Virus record (IMG/VR): IMGVR_UViG_3300042287_000597
Coordinates: 1 to 28,258 of that record
Source: a virus
Length of the DNA stretch: 28,258 bases
Reading direction: 5' to 3' (one strand)
Below the pieces are notes generated by a model, which was not told the DNA's origin, did not search any database, and worked only from the letters and a program-made list of their open reading frames with translations. Below, one piece after another: positions 5,961-26,396 of this stretch. How positions within the stretch are numbered: position 1 is the stretch's first letter; every line of letters starts with the position of its first letter. The translations under genes and the position numbers were made by a program.

Positions 5961-7673
5961 ATGCCAGTTTATAATAGACTCACAGATAGATCACAAGTTT
6001 CAGCGGTTACGGTTAATGACATCATTCACGTTGTTGTGACAGGAGACACAAGTCAAAGCCCTCAGGGTTCTTCATATTTTGCCCCAATTAGTTTTTTACA
6101 ACCAATACTAAGTGGTGCCAGTGGCACTCAAGGTACTTCAGGCACAAGTGGTAGTTCAGGATCAAGTGGATCTTCAGGAACATCAGGAACAAGAGGTTCA
6201 TCAGGAACATCAGGATCTAATGGTACAAGTGGTAGTTCAGGAACCACAGGATCTTCAGGATCTTCAGGAACTTCAGGAACTAATGGAAGTAGTGGTAGTA
6301 GTGGTAGTAGTGGTATCAGTGGATCTTCAGGGAGTAGTGGGACAAGCGGCACTAGCGGATCTAATGGATCAAGTGGTACTAGCGGATCTAATGGAACTTC
6401 AGGTAGTTCAGGATCAAGTGGTAGTGCTGGATCTGCGGGTACCTCAGGATTATCATTTGGTACTTCAGGTACAAGTGGTAGTTCAGGATCGAGCGGATCT
6501 TCAGGTACAAGTGGTGCCAATGGTACTTCAGGAAGTTCAGGTTCAAGCGGTAATAGCGGTACATCAGGTTCTAGTGGTTCATCAGGTACATCAGGAGCAA
6601 ATGGTACATCAGGTTCTAGTGGTTCATCAGGTACATCAGGAGCAAATGGTACATCAGGATCTTCAGGAAGTAGTGGAAACTCAGGAACATCAGGTTCAAG
6701 TGGAACAAGTGGCGCTAATGGTACTTCAGGTTCGTCAGGATCAAGTGGTAACAGTGGAACAAGTGGAAGTTCAGGAACTTCAGGGGCGAACGGAACTAGC
6801 GGTTCATCAGGTTCTTCAGGAAATAGTGGGACAAGTGGATCTTCAGGTACAAGTGGTATAAGTGGAACTCAGGGTGCAAATGGTTCGAGTGGTAGTTCTG
6901 GTACAAGTGGATCTAACGGTACTTCGGGTTCTACAGGTACTAGTGGTAGCGCGGGTACATCAGGAACATCACCAACTTCAGCAACTACAGTGAGTACTAT
7001 ACAAAACACAGGAAATACTAAATTTTATATAACATTTGTTGACTCAAACAATATCGTGGCAGGTCCTGAAAGTTTATATACTAACACTGGTATAAGTTTC
7101 AATCCAAGTACAGATATTTTAGAACTCATAACAGGATATCAAAGTGGTGATGGAACAGTTTCGGCCCCACCTTATAGTTTTATTGCGGATACCAATAGTG
7201 GGTTATATAGGGTCGGTACAGACCACGTAGGTTTGAGTACAAATGGTTCACATAGATTTTCGGCAAACAGTGTTGGTTTAGTTAATATTGGTGGTAATGG
7301 AAATGGGTCTCTAAACTATCAATTAGAAGGAAATGTTTCGACAAGTACAAATACTGTAACAACTTTATTATCTTTATCAACAATAACTGATTATTTTTAT
7401 ACTGTTGAGGCTTGGGTCATTGCAGGTAATATAAGTTCTCCAGGAGCAGTCGGTGGAAAAGTTTACGCTGTTTTTAGAAACGTTGGTGGGGTATTAACAC
7501 AAGTAGGTTCGACTGAAACCACATTTGTTAGAGAAGATTTTCCGATAGGGACACCTTCATTTACAATCGATGGTTCTGGTACAACAATAAGACTTAGAGT
7601 AACAGGTTTATCAGGAGTAAATATCGATTGGTATGGTAAATTTGTTTACCAATATTTGAACGCGGCAGTTTAA
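5961..7673 (+). CDS. Collagen-like tail fibre with Gly-X-Y repeats
   Basis: This 570-residue protein has three parts. Residues 1-50 are a compact N-terminal region, probably the attachment end. Residues about 52-336 are nearly unbroken Gly-X-Y triplets, mostly GTS, GSS, GAN and GNS, with one visible break (GLSFGTS). Proline is essentially absent from the repeat, unlike animal collagen. Residues 337-570 are a globular C-terminal region with a motif common in phage fibres (GTVSAPPYSFIADTNSGLYR, about 397-416) and a beta-rich end suited to receptor binding. Fibres of this type form long trimeric rods. The dense Ser/Thr content makes the shaft a possible O-glycosylation target, and three glycosyltransferase-like genes follow directly. 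Confidence 0.82.
   Translation: MPVYNRLTDRSQVSAVTVNDIIHVVVTGDTSQSPQGSSYFAPISFLQPILSGASGTQGTSGTSGSSGSSGSSGTSGTRGSSGTSGSNGTSGSSGTTGSSGSSGTSGTNGSSGSSGSSGISGSSGSSGTSGTSGSNGSSGTSGSNGTSGSSGSSGSAGSAGTSGLSFGTSGTSGSSGSSGSSGTSGANGTSGSSGSSGNSGTSGSSGSSGTSGANGTSGSSGSSGTSGANGTSGSSGSSGNSGTSGSSGTSGANGTSGSSGSSGNSGTSGSSGTSGANGTSGSSGSSGNSGTSGSSGTSGISGTQGANGSSGSSGTSGSNGTSGSTGTSGSAGTSGTSPTSATTVSTIQNTGNTKFYITFVDSNNIVAGPESLYTNTGISFNPSTDILELITGYQSGDGTVSAPPYSFIADTNSGLYRVGTDHVGLSTNGSHRFSANSVGLVNIGGNGNGSLNYQLEGNVSTSTNTVTTLLSLSTITDYFYTVEAWVIAGNISSPGAVGGKVYAVFRNVGGVLTQVGSTETTFVREDFPIGTPSFTIDGSGTTIRLRVTGLSGVNIDWYGKFVYQYLNAAV
6114..6970 (+). repeat. Degenerate repeat coding Gly-X-Y collagen-like shaft
   Basis: About 285 codons repeat a nine-base theme (GGN plus two Ser/Thr-type codons). 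Longer near-copies occur inside it, for example around 6545-6660 and 6700-6860 (GTSGANGTSGSSGSSGNS type). Synonymous codons vary a lot between copies (tca, agt, agc for serine), so the protein repeat is conserved more than the DNA. Confidence 0.85.
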
Positions 7674-7707: not shown

Positions 7708-8952
7708 ATGAAAATATTTGTGCAGATTGCTGCTTATCGTGACCCCCAACTTATACCAACAATTAAATCTATGTTGGAGAAAGCAAAAAAACCAAAAAAT
7801 ATTATTATTGGTATTGCAAGACAATTTCATCCTGAAGATGGTTTTGATGATTTAACTGAATATGAAAATGATGATCGTTTTCGTATTTTAAATATCCCAC
7901 ACACTGAATCAAAAGGCGTTTGTTGGGCAAGACACCAAGTCCAACAATTATATGGAGGTGAAGAATACACACTTCAAATCGATTCTCATATGAGATTTGA
8001 AAAGGATTGGGATGATACTTTAATCAAAATGATTAAAAAATTACAAAAACTTGGTCATAAAAAACCTTTGTTAACAGGTTACGTTTCATCTTTTGATCCT
8101 GATAATGATCCTGAAGGTAGGGTTAATGAACCTTGGAGAATGGCGTTTGATAGATTCACACCTGAAGGTGTTGTATTTTTCTTACCTGAGGTAATTCCTG
8201 ATTGGACTAAAATTAAAGACCCGATCCCTGCAAGATTTTATTCGGCACACTTCTGTTTTACTTTAGGTCAATTCTCAACTGAAGTACAACACGATCCTGA
8301 ATTTTATTTTCATGGAGAAGAAATTTCAATAACCGTTAGAGCCTATACTCATGGATATGATTTATTCCACCCAAATAAAGTTGTTATTTGGCATGAATAC
8401 ACAAGAAAAGGTAGAACTAAACAATGGGACGATGACAAAGATTGGTACTTAAAAAATACCGCATGTCATAAAAAAAATAGACAACTTCTTGGTATTGATG
8501 GTGAAAAATATGATGGAGACTATTACGATTGGTTTGGTAAAGAAAGAACAATAAGAGATTACGAAAAATATGCAGGGTTGTTATTTGAGACAAGAGCAGT
8601 ACAACAAGATACTATAGATAAAAAATATCCTCCAAACCATTATGACTTTGAAAATGAAAATGAATGGAAAAAAAGTTTCTCAACAATATTCAAACACTGT
8701 ATTGATTTAGATTTAAATCAAGTTCCTGAAACGGACTACGATTTTTGGGTTGTTGCTTTTCACGATCATGAACACCAAACAATTTACAGACAAGATGCCG
8801 ACGCAAACGAAATCATAAGAATAAAGTCAGACCCTGAGGGATATGGTAAAATATGGAGAGAATTCAACACAACAAAAATACCATCGTATTGGGTAGTATG
8901 GCCTCACTCAATTTCAAAAGATTGGTGTGATAGAATTGTTGGTAATTTATGA
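7708..8952 (+). CDS. GlcNAc-type glycosyltransferase (Skp1 GnT1/PF11397-like)
   Basis: This 414-residue protein matches the pattern of the GlcNAc-transferase family whose best-known member adds GlcNAc to Skp1 in Dictyostelium. It begins with MKIFVQIAAYRDPQL. GVCWARHQVQQLYGGEEY at about 70-87 is followed by LQIDSHMRF at 89-97, where D92 and H94 take the place of a DXD site. Further conserved-looking parts are ARFYSAHFCFTLG near 178 and FHGEEISITVRAYTHGYDL near 207. The last ~110 residues (from about 300) form a separate region of unknown role. It follows the collagen-like fibre by 34 bases and overlaps the next gene by four. Transfer of GlcNAc or a related sugar to a hydroxyl on a virion protein would fit, but is inferred. 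Confidence 0.75.
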   Translation: MKIFVQIAAYRDPQLIPTIKSMLEKAKKPKNIIIGIARQFHPEDGFDDLTEYENDDRFRILNIPHTESKGVCWARHQVQQLYGGEEYTLQIDSHMRFEKDWDDTLIKMIKKLQKLGHKKPLLTGYVSSFDPDNDPEGRVNEPWRMAFDRFTPEGVVFFLPEVIPDWTKIKDPIPARFYSAHFCFTLGQFSTEVQHDPEFYFHGEEISITVRAYTHGYDLFHPNKVVIWHEYTRKGRTKQWDDDKDWYLKNTACHKKNRQLLGIDGEKYDGDYYDWFGKERTIRDYEKYAGLLFETRAVQQDTIDKKYPPNHYDFENENEWKKSFSTIFKHCIDLDLNQVPETDYDFWVVAFHDHEHQTIYRQDADANEIIRIKSDPEGYGKIWREFNTTKIPSYWVVWPHSISKDWCDRIVGNL

Positions 8953-9836
8953 GAACATTATTTGTAACTTGTTTATATTCAAAACTTTTTGGATCTGAGT
9001 TTGGTGGTAGGGATAGTAGAGATGGTCACTACAAAAATTCACTAAAAAGTCTTTTAAAGATGTCTGACGCTAAATTTATTTGTTATACGTCAGAAGATCA
9101 GATAAATGATTTAAAATCTTTTTTCTATAAACAAAACAAATTTAATGAGGACCAAATCCAATTCAAAATCTTCGATTTAAAAAATTGCGAGTATCACCAA
9201 AAAATTTCTGAATTAAGGAAAACTCAAAGTAATTTACTACACGATAGATGTTATGAAATACAATATTCTAAATTTTTTTGGTGTTTAGAAAATTGTAACA
9301 ATTCAGATTTTGATTATGTTTTTTGGATAGATGCAGGGTTATCACATAGTGGACTGATACCACCAAAGTATTTAGACCAAACAAAAGGATATTGGGAAAA
9401 ATATTTTGAGTCTGAATTATTTAACAACACACTTTTAAATAATTTAATTAAACATACTGGCGAACAGATTGTGGTGTGTGCAAAAGAAAATCAAAGAAAC
9501 CATTGGTCAAAAACTTTACCAAAAAAATATTATAACAATTATAGTTTTGATAGACACATTATTGGCGGTTTGTTCGGAGGTAAAAAAGAAAATCTAAAAG
9601 ACCTTTGTAATTTATTTAACGAAAACATCAAAAATGTTTTAAACAACGAAACTGAACTTTACTTAGAAGAAAACATAATGAGTTTAATGTTCTTTAATAA
9701 TAATGAATTGTTCAACCCACTTCTATTTGATATTTGGTGGCATGAGGAAGACTTTATACCTGGTGTTGATTTAAAAGAATTAACCTTAAAAGAAAAAAGT
9801 TTTTATAAAATTATAGAAAATCTAAATAATATATAA
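8949..9836 (+). CDS. HtrL/YibB-like putative glycosyltransferase
   Basis: This 295-residue protein resembles the HtrL/YibB family, thought to be GT-A-type sugar transferases linked to LPS loci. Residues 123-131 read YVFWIDAGL, the family signature and probable metal/nucleotide-sugar site; the next gene carries the same WIDAGL at 135-140. A second region, RHIIGGLFGGKKENL at about 202-216, matches the GGFFGG-type stretch of the neighbour. Its start overlaps the upstream stop (ATGA), and the next start is one base after its own stop. The three genes are therefore one coupled unit. The donor and acceptor are unknown, and enzymatic activity is an inference from the family. Confidence 0.62.
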   Translation: MRTLFVTCLYSKLFGSEFGGRDSRDGHYKNSLKSLLKMSDAKFICYTSEDQINDLKSFFYKQNKFNEDQIQFKIFDLKNCEYHQKISELRKTQSNLLHDRCYEIQYSKFFWCLENCNNSDFDYVFWIDAGLSHSGLIPPKYLDQTKGYWEKYFESELFNNTLLNNLIKHTGEQIVVCAKENQRNHWSKTLPKKYYNNYSFDRHIIGGLFGGKKENLKDLCNLFNENIKNVLNNETELYLEENIMSLMFFNNNELFNPLLFDIWWHEEDFIPGVDLKELTLKEKSFYKIIENLNNI

Positions 9837-9837
9837 G

Positions 9838-11505
9838 ATGATAACATTAGTTACAGGATTATGGGATATTGGTAGGGGAGACCTATCAGAAGGATGGTCA
9901 AGATCTTTTGATCATTATTTAAGTAAGTTCGAACAACTATTACAAGTAGATTGTAATATGATAATTTTTGGTGATAGTGAGTTAGAAAAGTTTGTTAATC
10001 AAAGACGAAGTGTAACCAACACACAATTTGTATTAAGAGATTTAAATTGGTTTAGAAATAATGAATTTTATAATCAAATTCAATCAATAAGAACAAATCC
10101 AAAATGGTATAATCTTGCAGGTTGGTTAAAAGACTCAACACAAGCGAGATTAGAAATGTACAACCCATTAGTAATGTCAAAAATGTTTTTATTACATGAT
10201 GCGGTATTATTAGATAAATTTAATTCTGAAAAACTATATTGGATTGATGCTGGTTTAGCAAACACTGTTCACATGGGTTATTTAACTCATGATAAAGTAT
10301 TACCAAGGATTGATGATCTTTTTACTAATTTTACATTCATTTGTTTTCCATATGTTGCGGATAAAGAAATACATGGTTTTGATATTAATAAAATGGATAT
10401 CATCACGGGAACAAGAGTTGATAAAGTTTGTAGAGGAGGATTCTTTGGGGGGCCTGTAAATCTAATAAGACAAATGAATACCCTTTATTATAATTTGATA
10501 AAATCAACATTAGAAAGAGGATTAATGGGAACGGAAGAAAGTTTATTTTCAATTCTATTATATAACAACCCAACAATAATTGATTATGTTGAGATCGAAT
10601 CTAACGGTTTAATTTATAAATTTTTTGAAGATGTAAAAAACAATAACTTAGTTATTAAATCTTTAAAAAAAGAAAGAGTTATTAAAAATAAAACCAATGG
10701 TCAAGTTGGTTTATATGTGATAACATTTAATAGCCCAAAACAATTTGAAACTCTTATCAATTCTATGTTACTATATGACTCTGAATTTTTAGAAAAAACT
10801 AATAAATTTTTATTAAATAACTCAACCGATCTATCGACAACACCTGAATATATTAAGTTATGTGAACAATATGGATTTGAACATATTAAAAAAGATAATA
10901 TAGGAATTACAGGTGGTAGAGTATTTGTTGCAGATCATTTTGAAAATTCTGAAATGGAGTACTATTTGTTTTTTGAAGATGACATGTTTTTCAACATGGG
11001 TGCGGATGATGTATGTAAAAATGGGTTTAATAGAAATGTAAGACATCTATATAGGAAAGTTCTACAAATTATGAGAAAAGAAAATTTTGATTTTCTTAAA
11101 TTAAATTATACGGAATTTTACGGTAGTCATGAAAGACAATGGTCTTGGTATAATGTAGATCAAGAATTTAGATCAAAACATTGGCCAAACAATCAAAAAC
11201 TACCAACACACGGACAAGATCCTAACTCTCCTTTTTTAGAATTTAAAAACATAAAATCAGTCGACGGTTTACCATACGCAACAGGTGAGATTTATTTATC
11301 TAATTGGCCAATTATTTTGTCAAGAGAGGGTAATTACAAGTGTTATATTGAAACTAAATTTGATCATCCTTACGAACAAACTTTAATGTCTCATTGTTAT
11401 AAACAAACAATCAAAGGTAGAATTCATGCCGGTTTACTTCTTCTAACTCCAACAGAACACAATAGGTTTGACTTCTATGATGGTAAATTGAGAAAAGAAT
11501 TCTAA
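9838..11505 (+). CDS. Two-domain protein: HtrL/YibB-like plus second GT-A glycosyltransferase
   Basis: This 555-residue protein fuses two sugar-transferase-like domains. Residues 1-270 look like HtrL/YibB: LWDIGRGDLS at 8-17, LYWIDAGLA at 133-141 and RGGFFGGPVNLIRQM near 200-214. Residues about 283-555 start a new GT-A fold (GLYVITFNSPKQFETLINS), with FFEDDMFF near 377-384 as a DXD-type site. The C-terminal part ends with HAGLLLLTPTEHNRFDFYDG, an acceptor-side region I cannot place. It is the last gene of the coupled trio and probably adds one or two sugars in sequence to the same target. The stop is followed by a promoter-like motif for the next gene. I am fairly sure of two domains, less sure of each family name. 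Confidence 0.65.
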   Translation: MITLVTGLWDIGRGDLSEGWSRSFDHYLSKFEQLLQVDCNMIIFGDSELEKFVNQRRSVTNTQFVLRDLNWFRNNEFYNQIQSIRTNPKWYNLAGWLKDSTQARLEMYNPLVMSKMFLLHDAVLLDKFNSEKLYWIDAGLANTVHMGYLTHDKVLPRIDDLFTNFTFICFPYVADKEIHGFDINKMDIITGTRVDKVCRGGFFGGPVNLIRQMNTLYYNLIKSTLERGLMGTEESLFSILLYNNPTIIDYVEIESNGLIYKFFEDVKNNNLVIKSLKKERVIKNKTNGQVGLYVITFNSPKQFETLINSMLLYDSEFLEKTNKFLLNNSTDLSTTPEYIKLCEQYGFEHIKKDNIGITGGRVFVADHFENSEMEYYLFFEDDMFFNMGADDVCKNGFNRNVRHLYRKVLQIMRKENFDFLKLNYTEFYGSHERQWSWYNVDQEFRSKHWPNNQKLPTHGQDPNSPFLEFKNIKSVDGLPYATGEIYLSNWPIILSREGNYKCYIETKFDHPYEQTLMSHCYKQTIKGRIHAGLLLLTPTEHNRFDFYDGKLRKEF

Positions 11506-16188: not shown

Positions 16189-17316
16189 TTAAATTACATA
16201 TATCTGACGAGGCATAGCTCTAAACTTAAGAGTTTTGTTTAAGTTTTCAGCTAACAAAGCTTCTCTTTCCATCACTTTTTCAGGACGAAGTCTTGTTAAT
16301 CTTCCTTCAGGGCCGATTAATTCCTCAGCTAATTTAGCCTTTTCATCTTTACCCTCAGTACCTAATGTTGCATAATCCATAGTTAAGTCACCATCAGGAG
16401 TCTTTAAGTTACCACTAAATTTACCACGAACTCTCGCTAAAGTTTCTTTACAGTAAGCAATAAACCATCTACGAACCCAAACTTGAGCAGGATTATTTAG
16501 TTTGTACCAACTTATTTTATTGAATGGGACATCGGAAGGTAAAAGAACAATATCAGGATTATCAGCTAAACACTTATCTCTATCACCTTGTGAAGTATCA
16601 TAATACCAATACCAAACTTGACCTTTTGCTAATTCAGCATTACCGAAGTCAAATTTACCACCTGGAGTGTTCAAAAGGTGTAATGCTTTTTTACCACCAG
16701 GGAGTGCTGTAATATAATAAGTTAAATCTCCCGCAAATATTCTTCTTTGGATGTTAACTTCTTGCATTCTTAATAATGTATCGAAGGCAGGTGTTAAATA
16801 ATAACTTCCCGCCATATTACCAATTTGTGCAAGACCTCCACCACCACCAAGTCCAGTTCCATTACCAATACCCGCAAAACCACCTAAACCAAACATTAAG
16901 TTGTTTAATGTTGATGGAGTAAACCATAATACTTCATTTATCTCACGACCCGCAGGTATCTCATAAATCTGTTGGTTAGGTACTAACTGTATAAAGTCTT
17001 TTTTAATTTCCCAATCACCACCTGCCTGTAGACCAACAATTTTGGAATAAGCATAAGTGTACCTTGTTTCAAAATCTAAACTTTTAGTAATAAAGGCTCT
17101 TGATAAAGATTGTGTGTCTAAATTTAAATTATTTAATGTGGTCCATTGAGATTCAATTAACCAATCTTGAACATATTGAGAATAATCGTCAATTGAATAT
17201 TCTAATAATGTGTCCATCATTTCATCTTCCAATTCCACAGATCTTAAAGGTGCACCCAATAAGTGTCTAACTTTTTGATAGAATTGACTTCTTTCTGGTT
17301 CGTCGATTATTGCCAT
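16189..17316 (-). CDS. Neck/head-completion protein candidate (gp13-like)
   Basis: This 375-residue protein starts with a helical region that fits neck proteins (FYQKVRHLLGAPLRSVELED at 12-31, then a dimer-like helical stretch to about 110). Next comes a beta part ending QLVPNQQIYEIPAGREINEV near 109-128, a Gly-rich loop at about 141-160 (FGLGGFAGIGNGTGLGGGGG), and a C-terminal helical region with WVRRWFIAYCKETLARVRGKF near 281. The same order is seen in T4-type gp13 proteins, which seal the portal and join head to tail; T4 gp13 is 309 residues, so this one is longer. gp14- and gp15-like candidates lie 3 kb away on the other strand, supporting the idea. The call is from layout rather than a signature motif. 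Confidence 0.55.
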   Translation of the reverse strand: MAIIDEPERSQFYQKVRHLLGAPLRSVELEDEMMDTLLEYSIDDYSQYVQDWLIESQWTTLNNLNLDTQSLSRAFITKSLDFETRYTYAYSKIVGLQAGGDWEIKKDFIQLVPNQQIYEIPAGREINEVLWFTPSTLNNLMFGLGGFAGIGNGTGLGGGGGLAQIGNMAGSYYLTPAFDTLLRMQEVNIQRRIFAGDLTYYITALPGGKKALHLLNTPGGKFDFGNAELAKGQVWYWYYDTSQGDRDKCLADNPDIVLLPSDVPFNKISWYKLNNPAQVWVRRWFIAYCKETLARVRGKFSGNLKTPDGDLTMDYATLGTEGKDEKAKLAEELIGPEGRLTRLRPEKVMEREALLAENLNKTLKFRAMPRQIYVI

Positions 17317-17365: not shown

Positions 17366-18460
17366 TTATTTAGAATCCTTTTTTGTTCTTTTCAAGTATA
17401 GGTCATTAACAAATTCCCAATTAACAACATCCCAAAACTTTTGGATATATTCGTCACGTTTGTTTTGGTACTTTAAATAGTATGCGTGTTCCCAAACATC
17501 AAGACCCAACAAAGGATATCCACCCTTCTTAACTATGTTCATTAATGGATTATCTTGATTTGGTGTAGACATGATTTTTAAATCACCATCCTTATTCAGA
17601 TATAACCAAGCCCATCCAGATCCAAAACGATCTTTAGCTGCTTCGTTAAATTCATCTTTCATTTTTTTAATGTTACCAAAATCTTTTTTGATTTTTTTTA
17701 AAATCTCACCACTTGGTAGTTGTTTTTTAGGAGATAACATCTTCCAAAATAATGCGTGGTTAAAAGCCCCACCAGCATTATTTCTAACTTTATTATCGAA
17801 TTTACTTATAGTTCTTACAATATCTTCTAACTCTAAATCACCATCAATGTCTTTGATTGCTTTATTTAATTTATCAACATATCCTTTGTAGTGTTTATTG
17901 TAATGGATATTCATAGTTTTTGAATCTATAAATCTATTCAAAGAGGAATATGAGTAAGGTAACTTTTCAATACCAATTGATTTCATTTCAGAAACCAAAT
18001 TTTTTTTGATTAGTTGTTTTTCGTTTAATAAAATTTGTTCAGATAGAAGACTTACTTTTCCCTTGATCCCTTTATGTTCATACATCAATTCCTCAAGTTC
18101 AGGATATTTTTTTTCAAATTTTTTGACAATCTGACCTGCAAAAGCATTTGCTTCGTCTTCATTAATACCACCAATATTAGGTCCGTGTTCTCTACCAAGA
18201 ATTGTCATTTGATATTCGTGAACCCATTCATGTGCTAATGTTCTCATGATGTCACGATTTAATCTTCCTTTAGCAAGAACCTTAATTAAATGATCACCTC
18301 TTCTACTACCTGTAGACATCTCACCTTTTCTATCATCTAAAAACATAATTTTTAAATCATTCTTGAGTGGATACTCTTCTTGTAATAAAGAAATAAACTT
18401 TGTAACAAAGTCTTTTCGTTTTTTAATATCGGGATTTTCGTATTTGATAGAAACTTTCAT
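17366..18460 (-). CDS. Fusion of HExxH metallopeptidase-like domain and Fe/Mn superoxide dismutase
   Basis: This 364-residue protein joins two metal-site domains. Residues 1-120 contain LAHEWVHEYQ (H77, E78, H81), a zincin HExxH motif, and EDEANAFAG (E103 a likely third ligand), as in small zinc peptidases. After a charged linker, residues about 175-364 are a full-length Fe/Mn superoxide dismutase. It has the first ligand H186 in MNIHYNKHYKGYV, also with the gateway pair H190 and Y194; the second ligand H235 in GGAFNHALFW; and D321 and H325 in LDVWEHAYY. STPNQDNPLM (Q302) matches the Mn-type glutamine position, so Mn is the likelier metal. The enzyme would convert superoxide to peroxide and oxygen. 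I chose the ATG at 18460, since the promoter-like motif overlaps the longer reading from 18481. No signal peptide is seen, so it is cytoplasmic or packaged. Confidence 0.85.
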   Translation of the reverse strand: MKVSIKYENPDIKKRKDFVTKFISLLQEEYPLKNDLKIMFLDDRKGEMSTGSRRGDHLIKVLAKGRLNRDIMRTLAHEWVHEYQMTILGREHGPNIGGINEDEANAFAGQIVKKFEKKYPELEELMYEHKGIKGKVSLLSEQILLNEKQLIKKNLVSEMKSIGIEKLPYSYSSLNRFIDSKTMNIHYNKHYKGYVDKLNKAIKDIDGDLELEDIVRTISKFDNKVRNNAGGAFNHALFWKMLSPKKQLPSGEILKKIKKDFGNIKKMKDEFNEAAKDRFGSGWAWLYLNKDGDLKIMSTPNQDNPLMNIVKKGGYPLLGLDVWEHAYYLKYQNKRDEYIQKFWDVVNWEFVNDLYLKRTKKDSK

Positions 18461-18465
18461 CTTTG

Positions 18466-18472
18466 ATAAATA
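18466..18472 (-). promoter_or_regulatory. Candidate phage promoter motif ATATTTAT (minus strand)
   Basis: On the minus strand TATTTAT preceded by A ends 5 bases before the ATG at 18460. It lies inside the alternative N-terminal extension, which argues for the shorter start of the dismutase fusion. Confidence 0.47.
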
Positions 18473-18489
18473 TTCTACCAATCAAAAGA

Positions 18490-20256
18490 TTATCGTCTAT
18501 TGTTGATTAGATTCAATATTTCTTCAACAATGTCACCTGTATTTTCCACAACACCATCACCCATTACGGTTCTAATGATTTCTTTTTTACGATTAAGGAT
18601 GTCATAAATTGTGCCTTCGATGGTATTTTCAAATAGTGGGTAGTAAACCAATACGTTTGATTTTTGACCATAACGATAAGCTCTATCTTCAGCTTGTGCG
18701 TGTTCTGCAGGAACAAAAGATAAATCATTCATAATCACAGCTTCCGCAGAAGTTAAAGTCAAACCAACACCCGCAGCTTTTAAGTTACCAACAAAAACTT
18801 TAATTTTATCATCGTTTTGAAATTGATCTACGGCTTGTTGACGCATGGCATTAGAACAACTACCATCAAGGTAAACTGCTTGTTTTGAGAAATGTTGGTA
18901 TATTGTTTGAAGGGTATCAGTAAAGTTTGTGAATATTATAACTTTCTTTCCCTGTTCTATAATGTTTTCAGCAAACTCAATTGTTTGTTTTGTTTTTTCA
19001 TTTGCAATTACTTTTCTAACTTTCATAAGTTTAGAAAACTGAACTGTTAAAGATGATGACTCGTCAGGATTTTTATCGTACCAATCAAAATATTCACCCA
19101 TTAAATCTTCGTACTCTTTTGATTTTAATCTCAAATAAACAGGTGTAATGATTTTATCAGGTAAATCTAAAACATCTTCTTTCAATCTCCTAAGAATTTG
19201 TTTAGATGTACGATCTCTCAACTCTTCTAAATTAGAGGCACCTGTCACATTCCATACTTTTCTTTTACCTGCGGTAAATTGGAATCCTTGACAATACCTA
19301 ATTGCATAAGCCTTCCAATTCTGAGCAACAGGACTTTCAATTAGATTTAATAAATTATAATAATTCATAGGCCGAGAAGTCATTGGTGTTCCTGTTAACA
19401 ACCAAACTCGTTCTACTTTTTTTGCAAAACTATTAATAATCTTTGTTCTTTGTGCCTGAACATTTGATATCATGTGAGCTTCATCTAATATTACCAAGTC
19501 AAATCCACTTTGTAATAATAGAGACTCATCTTTTTTCTTCGCGTCTGAGTCGTGGAAGTTTTTAAGGATATCATAATTAACGATTACAAAATCATCTTCA
19601 GTTGAAAATTTTTTACCTTCCGCAATAAAAACAGGTCTATCTGAATAATTTGCAATTTCTCTTTGCCAATTTATCTTTAAAGACGCAGGGCAAACAATTA
19701 ATATTTTTTTTGCTCCTGTTTCTAAAGCGGCAATAATAGTTGAGGTTGTTTTACCAAGACCCATGTCATCGGCAAGAATAAATCTTTTAGATCCTGCTAA
19801 TTTTTCGATCGCAATTTTTTGATGATCAAGCGGAGGACGATGAGAATATTTAGAATAATCAACACTAACGGATTGAACGTTATGGGTTTTAATTAATGCA
19901 GATTTCGGAATCCAAAATTCTGATAGTTTATCCTTTTCAAAAAATTTACCCCAAACATGATAAGACTTTTCTTTTTCAACTAAAAGTTTTTCAATATAAA
20001 TCTGTTCTGGTACTTGAATCAAATATTTTTCTTCTGCGAATTTTTTAGAGAAGTAAGTGTCAAGCTCAACCCATTTACGTGCAATTTTAGGTGTTGAGTT
20101 GTAATATGTTGTAATATATTCCGATTGACTTCTAGTTGGGTAAAATTTACTAGAGACTTCTTTTTTATGTTTGAGATATAGTATATAATTATTTGCACCA
20201 CTATAACTTTCGAGCAACTCTAATGCTTTATGTTCTATCAGTGTTTTTGTTTCCAA
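18490..20256 (-). CDS. SNF2-family DNA helicase/translocase (SMARCAL1-like core)
   Basis: This 588-residue ATPase has the SNF2 layout. An N-terminal 130 residues of unknown role is followed by motif I ADDMGLGKT (162-170), motif Ia IVCPASLKINWQRE (187-200), motif II DEAH (258-261) and motif III LLTGTP (286-291). The C-terminal RecA-like domain has IIFTNFTDTL (440-449) and motif VI QAEDRAYRYGQ (521-531). The short core and LKINWQREI are closest in style to SMARCAL1-type fork-remodelling translocases. It probably moves on DNA during replication, recombination or repair, filling the place of T4 UvsW, though it is not UvsW itself. The frame opens with a TTG at 20256 immediately after an in-frame stop, and no ATG occurs until motif I, so TTG is the likely start. 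Confidence 0.88.
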   Translation of the reverse strand: METKTLIEHKALELLESYSGANNYILYLKHKKEVSSKFYPTRSQSEYITTYYNSTPKIARKWVELDTYFSKKFAEEKYLIQVPEQIYIEKLLVEKEKSYHVWGKFFEKDKLSEFWIPKSALIKTHNVQSVSVDYSKYSHRPPLDHQKIAIEKLAGSKRFILADDMGLGKTTSTIIAALETGAKKILIVCPASLKINWQREIANYSDRPVFIAEGKKFSTEDDFVIVNYDILKNFHDSDAKKKDESLLLQSGFDLVILDEAHMISNVQAQRTKIINSFAKKVERVWLLTGTPMTSRPMNYYNLLNLIESPVAQNWKAYAIRYCQGFQFTAGKRKVWNVTGASNLEELRDRTSKQILRRLKEDVLDLPDKIITPVYLRLKSKEYEDLMGEYFDWYDKNPDESSSLTVQFSKLMKVRKVIANEKTKQTIEFAENIIEQGKKVIIFTNFTDTLQTIYQHFSKQAVYLDGSCSNAMRQQAVDQFQNDDKIKVFVGNLKAAGVGLTLTSAEAVIMNDLSFVPAEHAQAEDRAYRYGQKSNVLVYYPLFENTIEGTIYDILNRKKEIIRTVMGDGVVENTGDIVEEILNLINNRR

Positions 20257-25568: not shown

Positions 25569-26396
25569 ATGAATTACAAAAAAATTGTTAAAGAAATTTT
25601 ATCTGAGATCATTCACGATCAGATGAAACCCACAATGAAGTATTATGCTTTTGACTGGGATGATAATCTTATGTATATGCCAACAAAAATTTATCTTGTA
25701 GATGATAAAGGAAAAACTGTTGGTATGTCTACGGAAGATTTTGCAGAGTATAGAACTGAGATTGGTAAAGAACCATTCGAATACGAGGGACATACTATTG
25801 TAAATTTTGACAAAGATGCCTTTAGAGACTTTAGAGTACCGGGAGATAAAGCTTTTATTAGTGATGCTATGAAAGCAGAAACAGGTCCAGCTTGGAGTGA
25901 CTTTGTTGAGGCGGTTAATAATGGGTCTGTATTTTCGATCATCACAGCAAGAGGACACACCCCTTCGGTACTTAAAAATGCTGTTTACAACCTAATTAAG
26001 AAGAACAAACACGGATTAAGTGAAAAAGAACTTGTTAAAAATCTTAAAAAATATAGAGATTTAGCAGATGAAGAAGATTTGTCTGATGATGAATTGGTTA
26101 GAGCTTATTTAGATATGAATAAGTATCATCCTGTAAGTTTCGGTGAAGGTTCGGCCGCGAATCCTGAAGAACTTAAAGTGAAAGCAATGAGAGAGTTTAT
26201 GTCATATGTTCAAGACTTATCAAGAAAATTACAAGAAAAAGCCTTTATGAAAAATAAAATAAGTAATTACTTTATACCTTATATTGGTTTTTCAGATGAT
26301 GATTTAAGAAACGTCCAAGCAATGAAGAAACATTTTGATGATGAATCTGGATTAGATATTTATCATACAGGAGGAGGTAAAAAAACTAAATTTTAA
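25569..26396 (+). CDS. HAD-superfamily phosphatase-like protein
   Basis: This 275-residue protein carries the HAD signature. Motif I is AFDWDDNLM (D29 nucleophile, D31), motif II is SIITARG (T126), and motif IV is IGFSDDDLRNV (D243, D244). The motif I threonine position is Asn. A helical insertion of about 100 residues (130-235, many Lys and Glu) separates motifs II and IV and could act as a cap; a motif III lysine may be in ELKVKAMREF (201-210). The enzyme probably removes phosphate from a nucleotide, sugar or nucleic acid end. The first 22 residues form a separate basic helix. It sits between sheath and tube genes, bounded by a terminator and its own promoter-like motif, so its place in the tail region may be incidental. 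Confidence 0.72.
   Translation: MNYKKIVKEILSEIIHDQMKPTMKYYAFDWDDNLMYMPTKIYLVDDKGKTVGMSTEDFAEYRTEIGKEPFEYEGHTIVNFDKDAFRDFRVPGDKAFISDAMKAETGPAWSDFVEAVNNGSVFSIITARGHTPSVLKNAVYNLIKKNKHGLSEKELVKNLKKYRDLADEEDLSDDELVRAYLDMNKYHPVSFGEGSAANPEELKVKAMREFMSYVQDLSRKLQEKAFMKNKISNYFIPYIGFSDDDLRNVQAMKKHFDDESGLDIYHTGGGKKTKF

Follow-up and report, generated by a model that had tools for sequence, protein, structure and literature searches.

A phage gene joining a zincin-like domain to superoxide dismutase, with exchangeable C-terminal modules and a possible fate as a precursor cut in the prohead

In phage T4, the prohead protease gp21 cleaves after the motif L/I-X-E, and internal proteins are packaged into the head, many of them being ejected (PMC9026906). 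For the polyvalent proteins of phages and plasmids, zincin-like domains have been proposed to carry out processing (PMC5512222), and PMC12542629 lists superoxide dismutase (SOD) among the auxiliary genes of putative Microcystis viruses. Here we analyse a stretch of viral DNA of 28,258 nucleotides (IMG/VR record IMGVR_UViG_3300042287_000597, positions 1 to 28,258; the whole stretch is hereafter the window), in which one gene encodes a protein, P0001, that joins an N-terminal zincin-like domain to a complete SOD. We describe the modular build of this zincin-SOD protein, with an exchangeable third module in most relatives, and the reading that we favour, with a probability of about 0.46, is that it represents a late-made multi-enzyme precursor of a T4-like phage, which would be cleaved inside the prohead and packaged along with the DNA. 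Among the titles and opening lines of abstracts listed by searches of open-licence PMC full text for phage SOD, none names the fusion, and the modular build, the junction motifs and the late-type setting are likewise not named in the search listings.

The C-terminal half of P0001 belongs to the Fe/Mn SOD family. Residues 165–353 match the Pfam families Sod_Fe_C (E 2.4e-41) and Sod_Fe_N (E 1.9e-21), both above the curated cut-off, and this half aligns along its length with solved MnSODs, such that H186, H235, D321 and H325 coincide with the four metal ligands of a solved SOD. Across loci L002–L081 and L001, a copy of the window, H235, D321 and H325 are unchanged in 81/81 rows and H186 in all 80 with a residue at that position, the row of L039 having no first half. 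In addition, the motifs NNAGG and NQDNPLM, which we take to be marks of Mn-type SODs, are invariant in the 38 phage SODs of alignment A1, a set chosen by hand from 80 loci and the window. A sequence-only reading of this DNA had proposed a complete Fe/Mn SOD with exactly these ligands and a Mn-type motif, and the first proposal holds, as does the second insofar as these motifs mark the Mn type. Although alike in all ligands and in the full-length match, the phage enzyme departs from the Fe/Mn SOD family in being joined to a zincin and often to a third module, and in forming one group on a long branch away from the 80 bacterial SODs used for comparison. Model confidence is moderate for the N-terminal half of the SOD (blocks of pLDDT, the predicted local distance difference test, of 57–68 over residues 171–240). 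The fusion is conserved and probably enzymatically intact. In the relative L039 (L039:5965-8145), which was left out of the zincin-half counts, of alignment A1 and of the shared-part identities, a single in-frame stop lies inside the SOD half and could be an assembly error or the sign of a broken gene.

The N-terminal half adopts a small zincin-like fold when residues 1–130 are modelled alone with AlphaFold2 (pLDDT 90.4, predicted template modelling score 0.87). Residues H77, E78, H81 and E103 are kept in 80/80 rows of the fusion. When stand-alone zincin homologues are included, H77, E78, H81, E101, A104 and N105 are invariant in 27/27 sequences, whereas position 103 varies (Q, F, R), and we therefore consider E101 a likelier third zinc ligand than E103; of the zincin motif proposed from sequence, the first three residues stand and the fourth probably does not. 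An ExxAN downstream of HExxH is presumably a mark of Peptidase_M78/IrrE-like enzymes. Profile matches are weak and recurrent, with Peptidase_M78 (PF06114) found in 10/27 family members (best 6.5e-5), SprT-like likewise in 10/27 (best 0.0058) and the phage metallo-protease family phrog_87 in 9/27 (best 8.6e-8); for the domain of the window itself, SprT-like is the only listed Pfam match (0.064, below the cut-off). Foldseek against the PDB gives Wss1 as the best hit (E 2.6e-3, none reaching 0.001 or better), the PDB fold matches comprising Wss1, YbeY and gluzincins, with Z up to 10.2 (AQ_1354, M1 aminopeptidases, Wss1, YbeY) and top rows at Z 8–10 over about 110 residues. IrrE/ImmA chains are not among the PDB fold matches listed, and the viral fold matches include proteins named IrrE-like. 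The domain resembles IrrE/ImmA (Peptidase_M78), SprT and Wss1 in its HExxH and ExxAN motifs, its small zincin fold and its weak repeated profile matches, but is distinct in that it is fused to SOD and that no DNA-binding domain was found beside it.

The zincin also occurs alone, as a 132-aa (amino acid) protein of cyanophage S-SRM01 and as open reading frames (ORFs) of 132–135 aa in 80/80 kept loci of a zincin scan, and the viral fold matches place it in long proteins of uncultured phages annotated as AAA, amidoligase or cytidyltransferase. Because of these stand-alone forms and long-protein matches, it looks like a mobile module. No zincin joined to a partner other than SOD was found in a scan of frames without SOD in loci other than L082–L164, and such partners are known from BFVD descriptions only.

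The same architecture recurs in the best 80 of 219 IMG/VR stretches that encode relatives (56 distinct proteins), and an assembly error joining two genes is thereby excluded. A helicase gene lies upstream on the same strand in 80/80 loci and a neck gene downstream on the same strand in 75/80, the five loci with no visible neck gene ending at most 1,200 bases from the matched part; from these conserved neighbours we conclude that the fusion is stably maintained in a single lineage of large phages known from environmental DNA. Such constant adjacency to the neck gene, in every contig long enough to show it, would also fit a neck or tail structural protein with enzyme domains that is neither cut nor located inside the head. 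We regard this as very improbable, since the neck gene is separate with a motif of its own, and closely related phages may have or lack the third module, which is not expected of a structural component. ORFs of 700–750 aa, examined as candidates for an SOD fused to the neck protein, were rejected as other sequences, the neck gene following separately. A search of 50,697 phage records gave no site matching 80% of the protein; SOD-only and zincin-only matches occur in 30 records, several of which resemble DNA of bacterial origin.

Beyond the SOD, the relatives fall into 37 with a C-terminal module of type a, 23 of type b, one of type c and three of type d, in addition to 15 with none and L071, which is cut by the contig end. 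L026, L027 and L071 missed the module pattern, the first two being typed by hand and the last listed as short. The extensions are mostly 320–380 residues long (150 for type d), and the four types have no BLASTP links to one another. Exchange is evident between close relatives: at 94% identity over the shared part, L013 carries type a and L014–L016 type b, and at 98% identity L003 carries type a and L002 and L078 none. No module matches Pfam above the cut-off (best 0.026), and types a and b have no match in PADLOC, although type b may be nuclease-like in appearance. The modules also exist apart from the fusion. Type d stands alone in L180, two genes upstream of gp21, with 66% identity over 118 aa and behind an (L/I)xE leader, and type a stands alone in L224–L226 behind a stretch with (L/I)xE. 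A different 1007-aa protein (L221:509-3532), which has an HExxH of another kind (FAHEIQHM), ends in a type-a module after an internal leader-like linker with (L/I)xE.

The linker between the zincin and the SOD carries two to four (L/I)xE motifs in each of the 38 aligned sequences. In the copy of the window, strict motifs end at E141 and E147, and E158 has V at P3. Although the linker is variable, E128, E147 and the run E158-M159-K160 are invariant in 38/38, with P3 being L or I in 34/38 at E147 and L, I or V in 38/38 at E158, a few residues past which the SOD match starts. The linkers that precede the C-terminal modules show the same motif: among 17 non-redundant examples (less than 60% mutual identity), all have at least one, versus 29% of 2,226 background windows from a relative's ORFs, and 13 have at least two, versus 5.5%; their mean was reached by 0/20,000 resamples and 0/5,000 shuffles. 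A gp21-type protease is present in four of the ten long relatives searched and the gp23 capsid protein in five. All five capsid proteins read contain LINE and then A at residue 60, which is presumably near the end of the T4 propeptide, and the step from LINE to A is likely to be the cut site of the capsid protein. The presence of (L/I)xE at the domain junctions lends indirect support to the earlier suggestion that the protein could be packaged.

Rather than the prohead protease, the zincin itself might cleave the linkers, either ahead of packaging or once the protein has been injected, as in a protein of the polyvalent type. The zincin-SOD protein shares with polyvalent proteins a phage-borne build from several unrelated domains including a zincin, as well as the exchange of modules. 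Zincin-like domains are proposed to process such proteins (PMC5512222), and the zincin module is matched in long annotated proteins of uncultured phages. This alternative seems unlikely to us. The zincin need not act in cis, because it is also found as a stand-alone protein throughout the zincin scan, and the linker motif fits both gp21-type specificity and the site expected in the capsid protein. The fusion further differs from polyvalent proteins in its T4-like setting and in junctions that resemble prohead-protease sites, and the word 'superoxide' occurs 0 times in the main text of PMC5512222.

The sequence-only reading had also assigned the gene a promoter-like motif of its own. This motif, ATATTTAT, precedes 58/270 ORFs of the relative G001 compared with 169/20,000 random stretches, a 25-fold enrichment, and TATTTAT precedes the SOD gene in 71/80 relatives versus 2.2% of random stretches, which bears out the assignment; in the nine relatives lacking TATTTAT, a gap of 450 bases or more separates the helicase end from the SOD gene. 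In G001, the genes preceded by ATATTTAT include those for scaffold, protease, neck and SOD, and in the window it stands before 7/22 genes, including those for the zincin-SOD protein, neck and tail sheath; it is absent before the polymerase and helicase of the window. The T4 late promoter TATAAATA was tried as an alternative and set aside, being found before 15/270 ORFs against 0.81% of random stretches, an enrichment of about 7-fold and less than that of ATATTTAT. From this distribution we infer that ATATTTAT is a late-promoter-like element. The suggestion that the protein may be made late is supported as far as the setting resembles that of late genes, the evidence for late expression being indirect.

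In the scheme that we favour, the zincin-SOD precursor, with a third module where present, would be made late together with head and tail proteins and would enter the prohead, where the gp21-type protease of the phage may cut the (L/I)xE linkers. Once freed, the enzymes would be retained in the head and delivered together with the DNA into the next host, like the internal proteins of T4. In that cell the SOD may remove superoxide made during infection, or it may shield the packaged DNA from oxidation. The zincin would cleave some host protein, possibly a repressor of the kind that IrrE-type peptidases cut. If so, the phage head would ship protection from oxidative stress and a peptidase in one precursor cut by the capsid protease, virion packing would be a new use for an antioxidant enzyme, and auxiliary metabolic genes, whose products are generally assumed to work once expressed in the host, would be linked with packaged early effectors. 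Leaders and linkers with (L/I)xE would then offer a sequence rule for predicting virion cargo in uncultured T4-like phages.

Several observations weigh against this scheme, the main weakness being that the copy in the window, a short form that lacks the C-terminal linker, offers inter-domain sites only and has no N-terminal targeting leader. Judged by eye, its N-terminus has none of the leader kinds seen on other ORFs of G001. The protein resembles the capsid-targeted and gp21-cut T4 internal proteins and Alt in its T4-like phage, its (L/I)xE motifs and the gp21-type protease of some relatives; in T4, however, the targeting leader is N-terminal on single proteins, whereas here the motif lies between enzyme domains, and because no N-terminal capsid-targeting leader is seen by eye we do not class the protein as a packaged internal protein of T4 type. 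The protease was not found in six, nor the capsid gene in five, of the ten long fragments, and neither is among the window genes searched, the phage of the window being known from 28 kb (kilobases). The (L/I)xE motif is short, the linkers have a composition dominated by E, K and L, and some of them share ancestry. Moreover, E128 is invariant yet mostly has M at P3, unlike the gp21 motif, so that invariance alone is no mark of a cut site; E147 and E158 might instead belong to a helix, and M159 might serve as an internal start, although no conserved ribosome site was seen before it and one may still exist. Finally, since neither the capsid gene of G001 nor the tail tube and hub genes of the window are preceded by ATATTTAT, it is not proven to be a late promoter.

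More tentatively, the zincin-SOD protein could be part of a general cargo system, in which (L/I)xE leaders sit on unrelated proteins, strung precursors (zincin-SOD-X) are cut by the prohead protease and the SOD is injected. In G001 (L308–L321, pieces of a 272-kb contig), 35/270 ORFs start with a leader such as MKRIVRLTESDLARIVRRVINE, MKELIRHILKEE or MKIIITE.Q, a count made with hand-made patterns among which a few chance matches are likely, and the bodies of these ORFs look unrelated. Residues 1–20 of G001 ORFs contain (L/I)xE about 1.8 times as often as residues 41–80, and TATTTAT lies upstream of 23/35 leader ORFs versus 70/235 others. Possibly, these leaders constitute a genome-wide capsid-targeting system.

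SOD was described in the sequence-only reading as unusual in a phage, and it is indeed uncommon, but it is known from jumbo phages, some of which carry genes annotated as SOD, and from the putative Microcystis viruses mentioned above. These precedents suit a simpler account, in which P0001 is an ordinary auxiliary SOD that acts in the infected cell and is never packaged, the zincin being a solubility, dimer or regulatory partner and the linker glutamates structural. Stand-alone SODs do occur in jumbo phages, and the copy in the window has no C-terminal module. In a tree with the 80 nearest bacterial SODs kept, the 38 phage SODs, whose ligands are conserved, form one group (100/100) that a long branch separates from the bacterial enzymes. 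We consider this account possible yet less probable than a packaged precursor: its upstream motif is shared with scaffold, protease and neck genes, (L/I)xE is enriched at junctions with unrelated modules, and those modules also exist alone behind (L/I)xE leaders. By title, 70 of the 80 bacterial SODs are from Bacteroidota, and the tree fits one old acquisition of SOD, perhaps from a Bacteroidota host. We tentatively favour Bacteroidota as the host of the phage; the pattern TTG-N17-21-TAnnTTTG precedes 9/268 ORFs versus 0.8% of random stretches, and a sigma70-like pattern 6/268 versus 1.3%, with the capsid protein being about equally near to Microcystis (43.7% identity) and to Flavobacterium phages (41.3%). 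A deposited protein from an uncultured Caudovirales phage, A0A6J5L953 (501 aa), shows a SOD match with 67% identity across 204 alignment columns; it is named as superoxide dismutase only, and with 501 aa it might be a fusion like those with a type-d module. Divergent SODs, about 29–30% identical over half the query, are found in PA5oct-like Pseudomonas jumbo phages and in Vibrio phage 2.275.O (H15–H26). The SOD of candidate phyla radiation (CPR) bacteria is treated in PMC9875498, and 'superoxide' does not occur in the accessible part of PMC7824862.

The coordinates of the locus are collected in Table 1. The ORF predicted from sequence is present with its strand corrected to minus, the plus strand over the same positions being full of stops when translated as given, and the neighbouring neck-protein candidate is confirmed by its match to a head-tail adaptor family. 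The neck protein has no match in named phages. The phage origin of the window is supported by matches to tail sheath, tail tube, baseplate, neck and DNA polymerase proteins, together with gp23 and the gp21-type protease in long relatives; no tRNAs were found in the window.

Table 1. Positions of the zincin-SOD gene, its domains and key residues, and its neighbours in the window
Feature	Position	Strand	Basis or remark
Zincin-SOD fusion gene (P0001, 364 aa)	17366..18460	-	ATG at 18460, stop 17366-17368
Promoter-like motif ATATTTAT	18466..18473	-	5 nucleotides before start codon
IrrE/SprT-like minimal zincin domain, residues 1-128	18077..18460	-	AlphaFold2 and profile matches
HEWVH zinc-binding motif, residues 77-81	18218..18232	-	Conservation
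E101, likely third zinc ligand (ExxAN)	18158..18160	-	Invariant in 27/27
Inter-domain linker, residues 129-158	17987..18076	-	Variable; pLDDT mostly below 50
Mn-type SOD domain, residues 159-356	17393..17986	-	Pfam and solved-SOD alignments
SOD metal ligand H186	17903..17905	-	Row conservation and solved-SOD alignment
SOD metal ligand H235	17756..17758	-	Row conservation and solved-SOD alignment
SOD metal ligand D321	17498..17500	-	Row conservation and solved-SOD alignment
SOD metal ligand H325	17486..17488	-	Row conservation and solved-SOD alignment
Short tail and stop	17366..17392	-	Frame runs on into an extra C-terminal module in 64/80 relatives
Neck/head-tail adaptor candidate, downstream	16189..17316	-	phrog_211, E 3.8e-9; own ATATTTAT motif
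DNA helicase, upstream	18490..20256	-	phrog_62, E 1.2e-113; no ATATTTAT motif

Elsewhere in the window, an ORF at 25569-26396 has the N-terminus MNYKKIVKEILSEI, a body that by eye is like a HAD-type phosphatase, and ATATTTAT upstream; no PHROG match at 0.01 was found for it. Three ORFs in a row among the structural genes (7708-11505) appear by eye to be of glycosyltransferase type, and positions 5961-7673 encode a long collagen-like protein with GTSGSSG repeats, likewise with ATATTTAT upstream.
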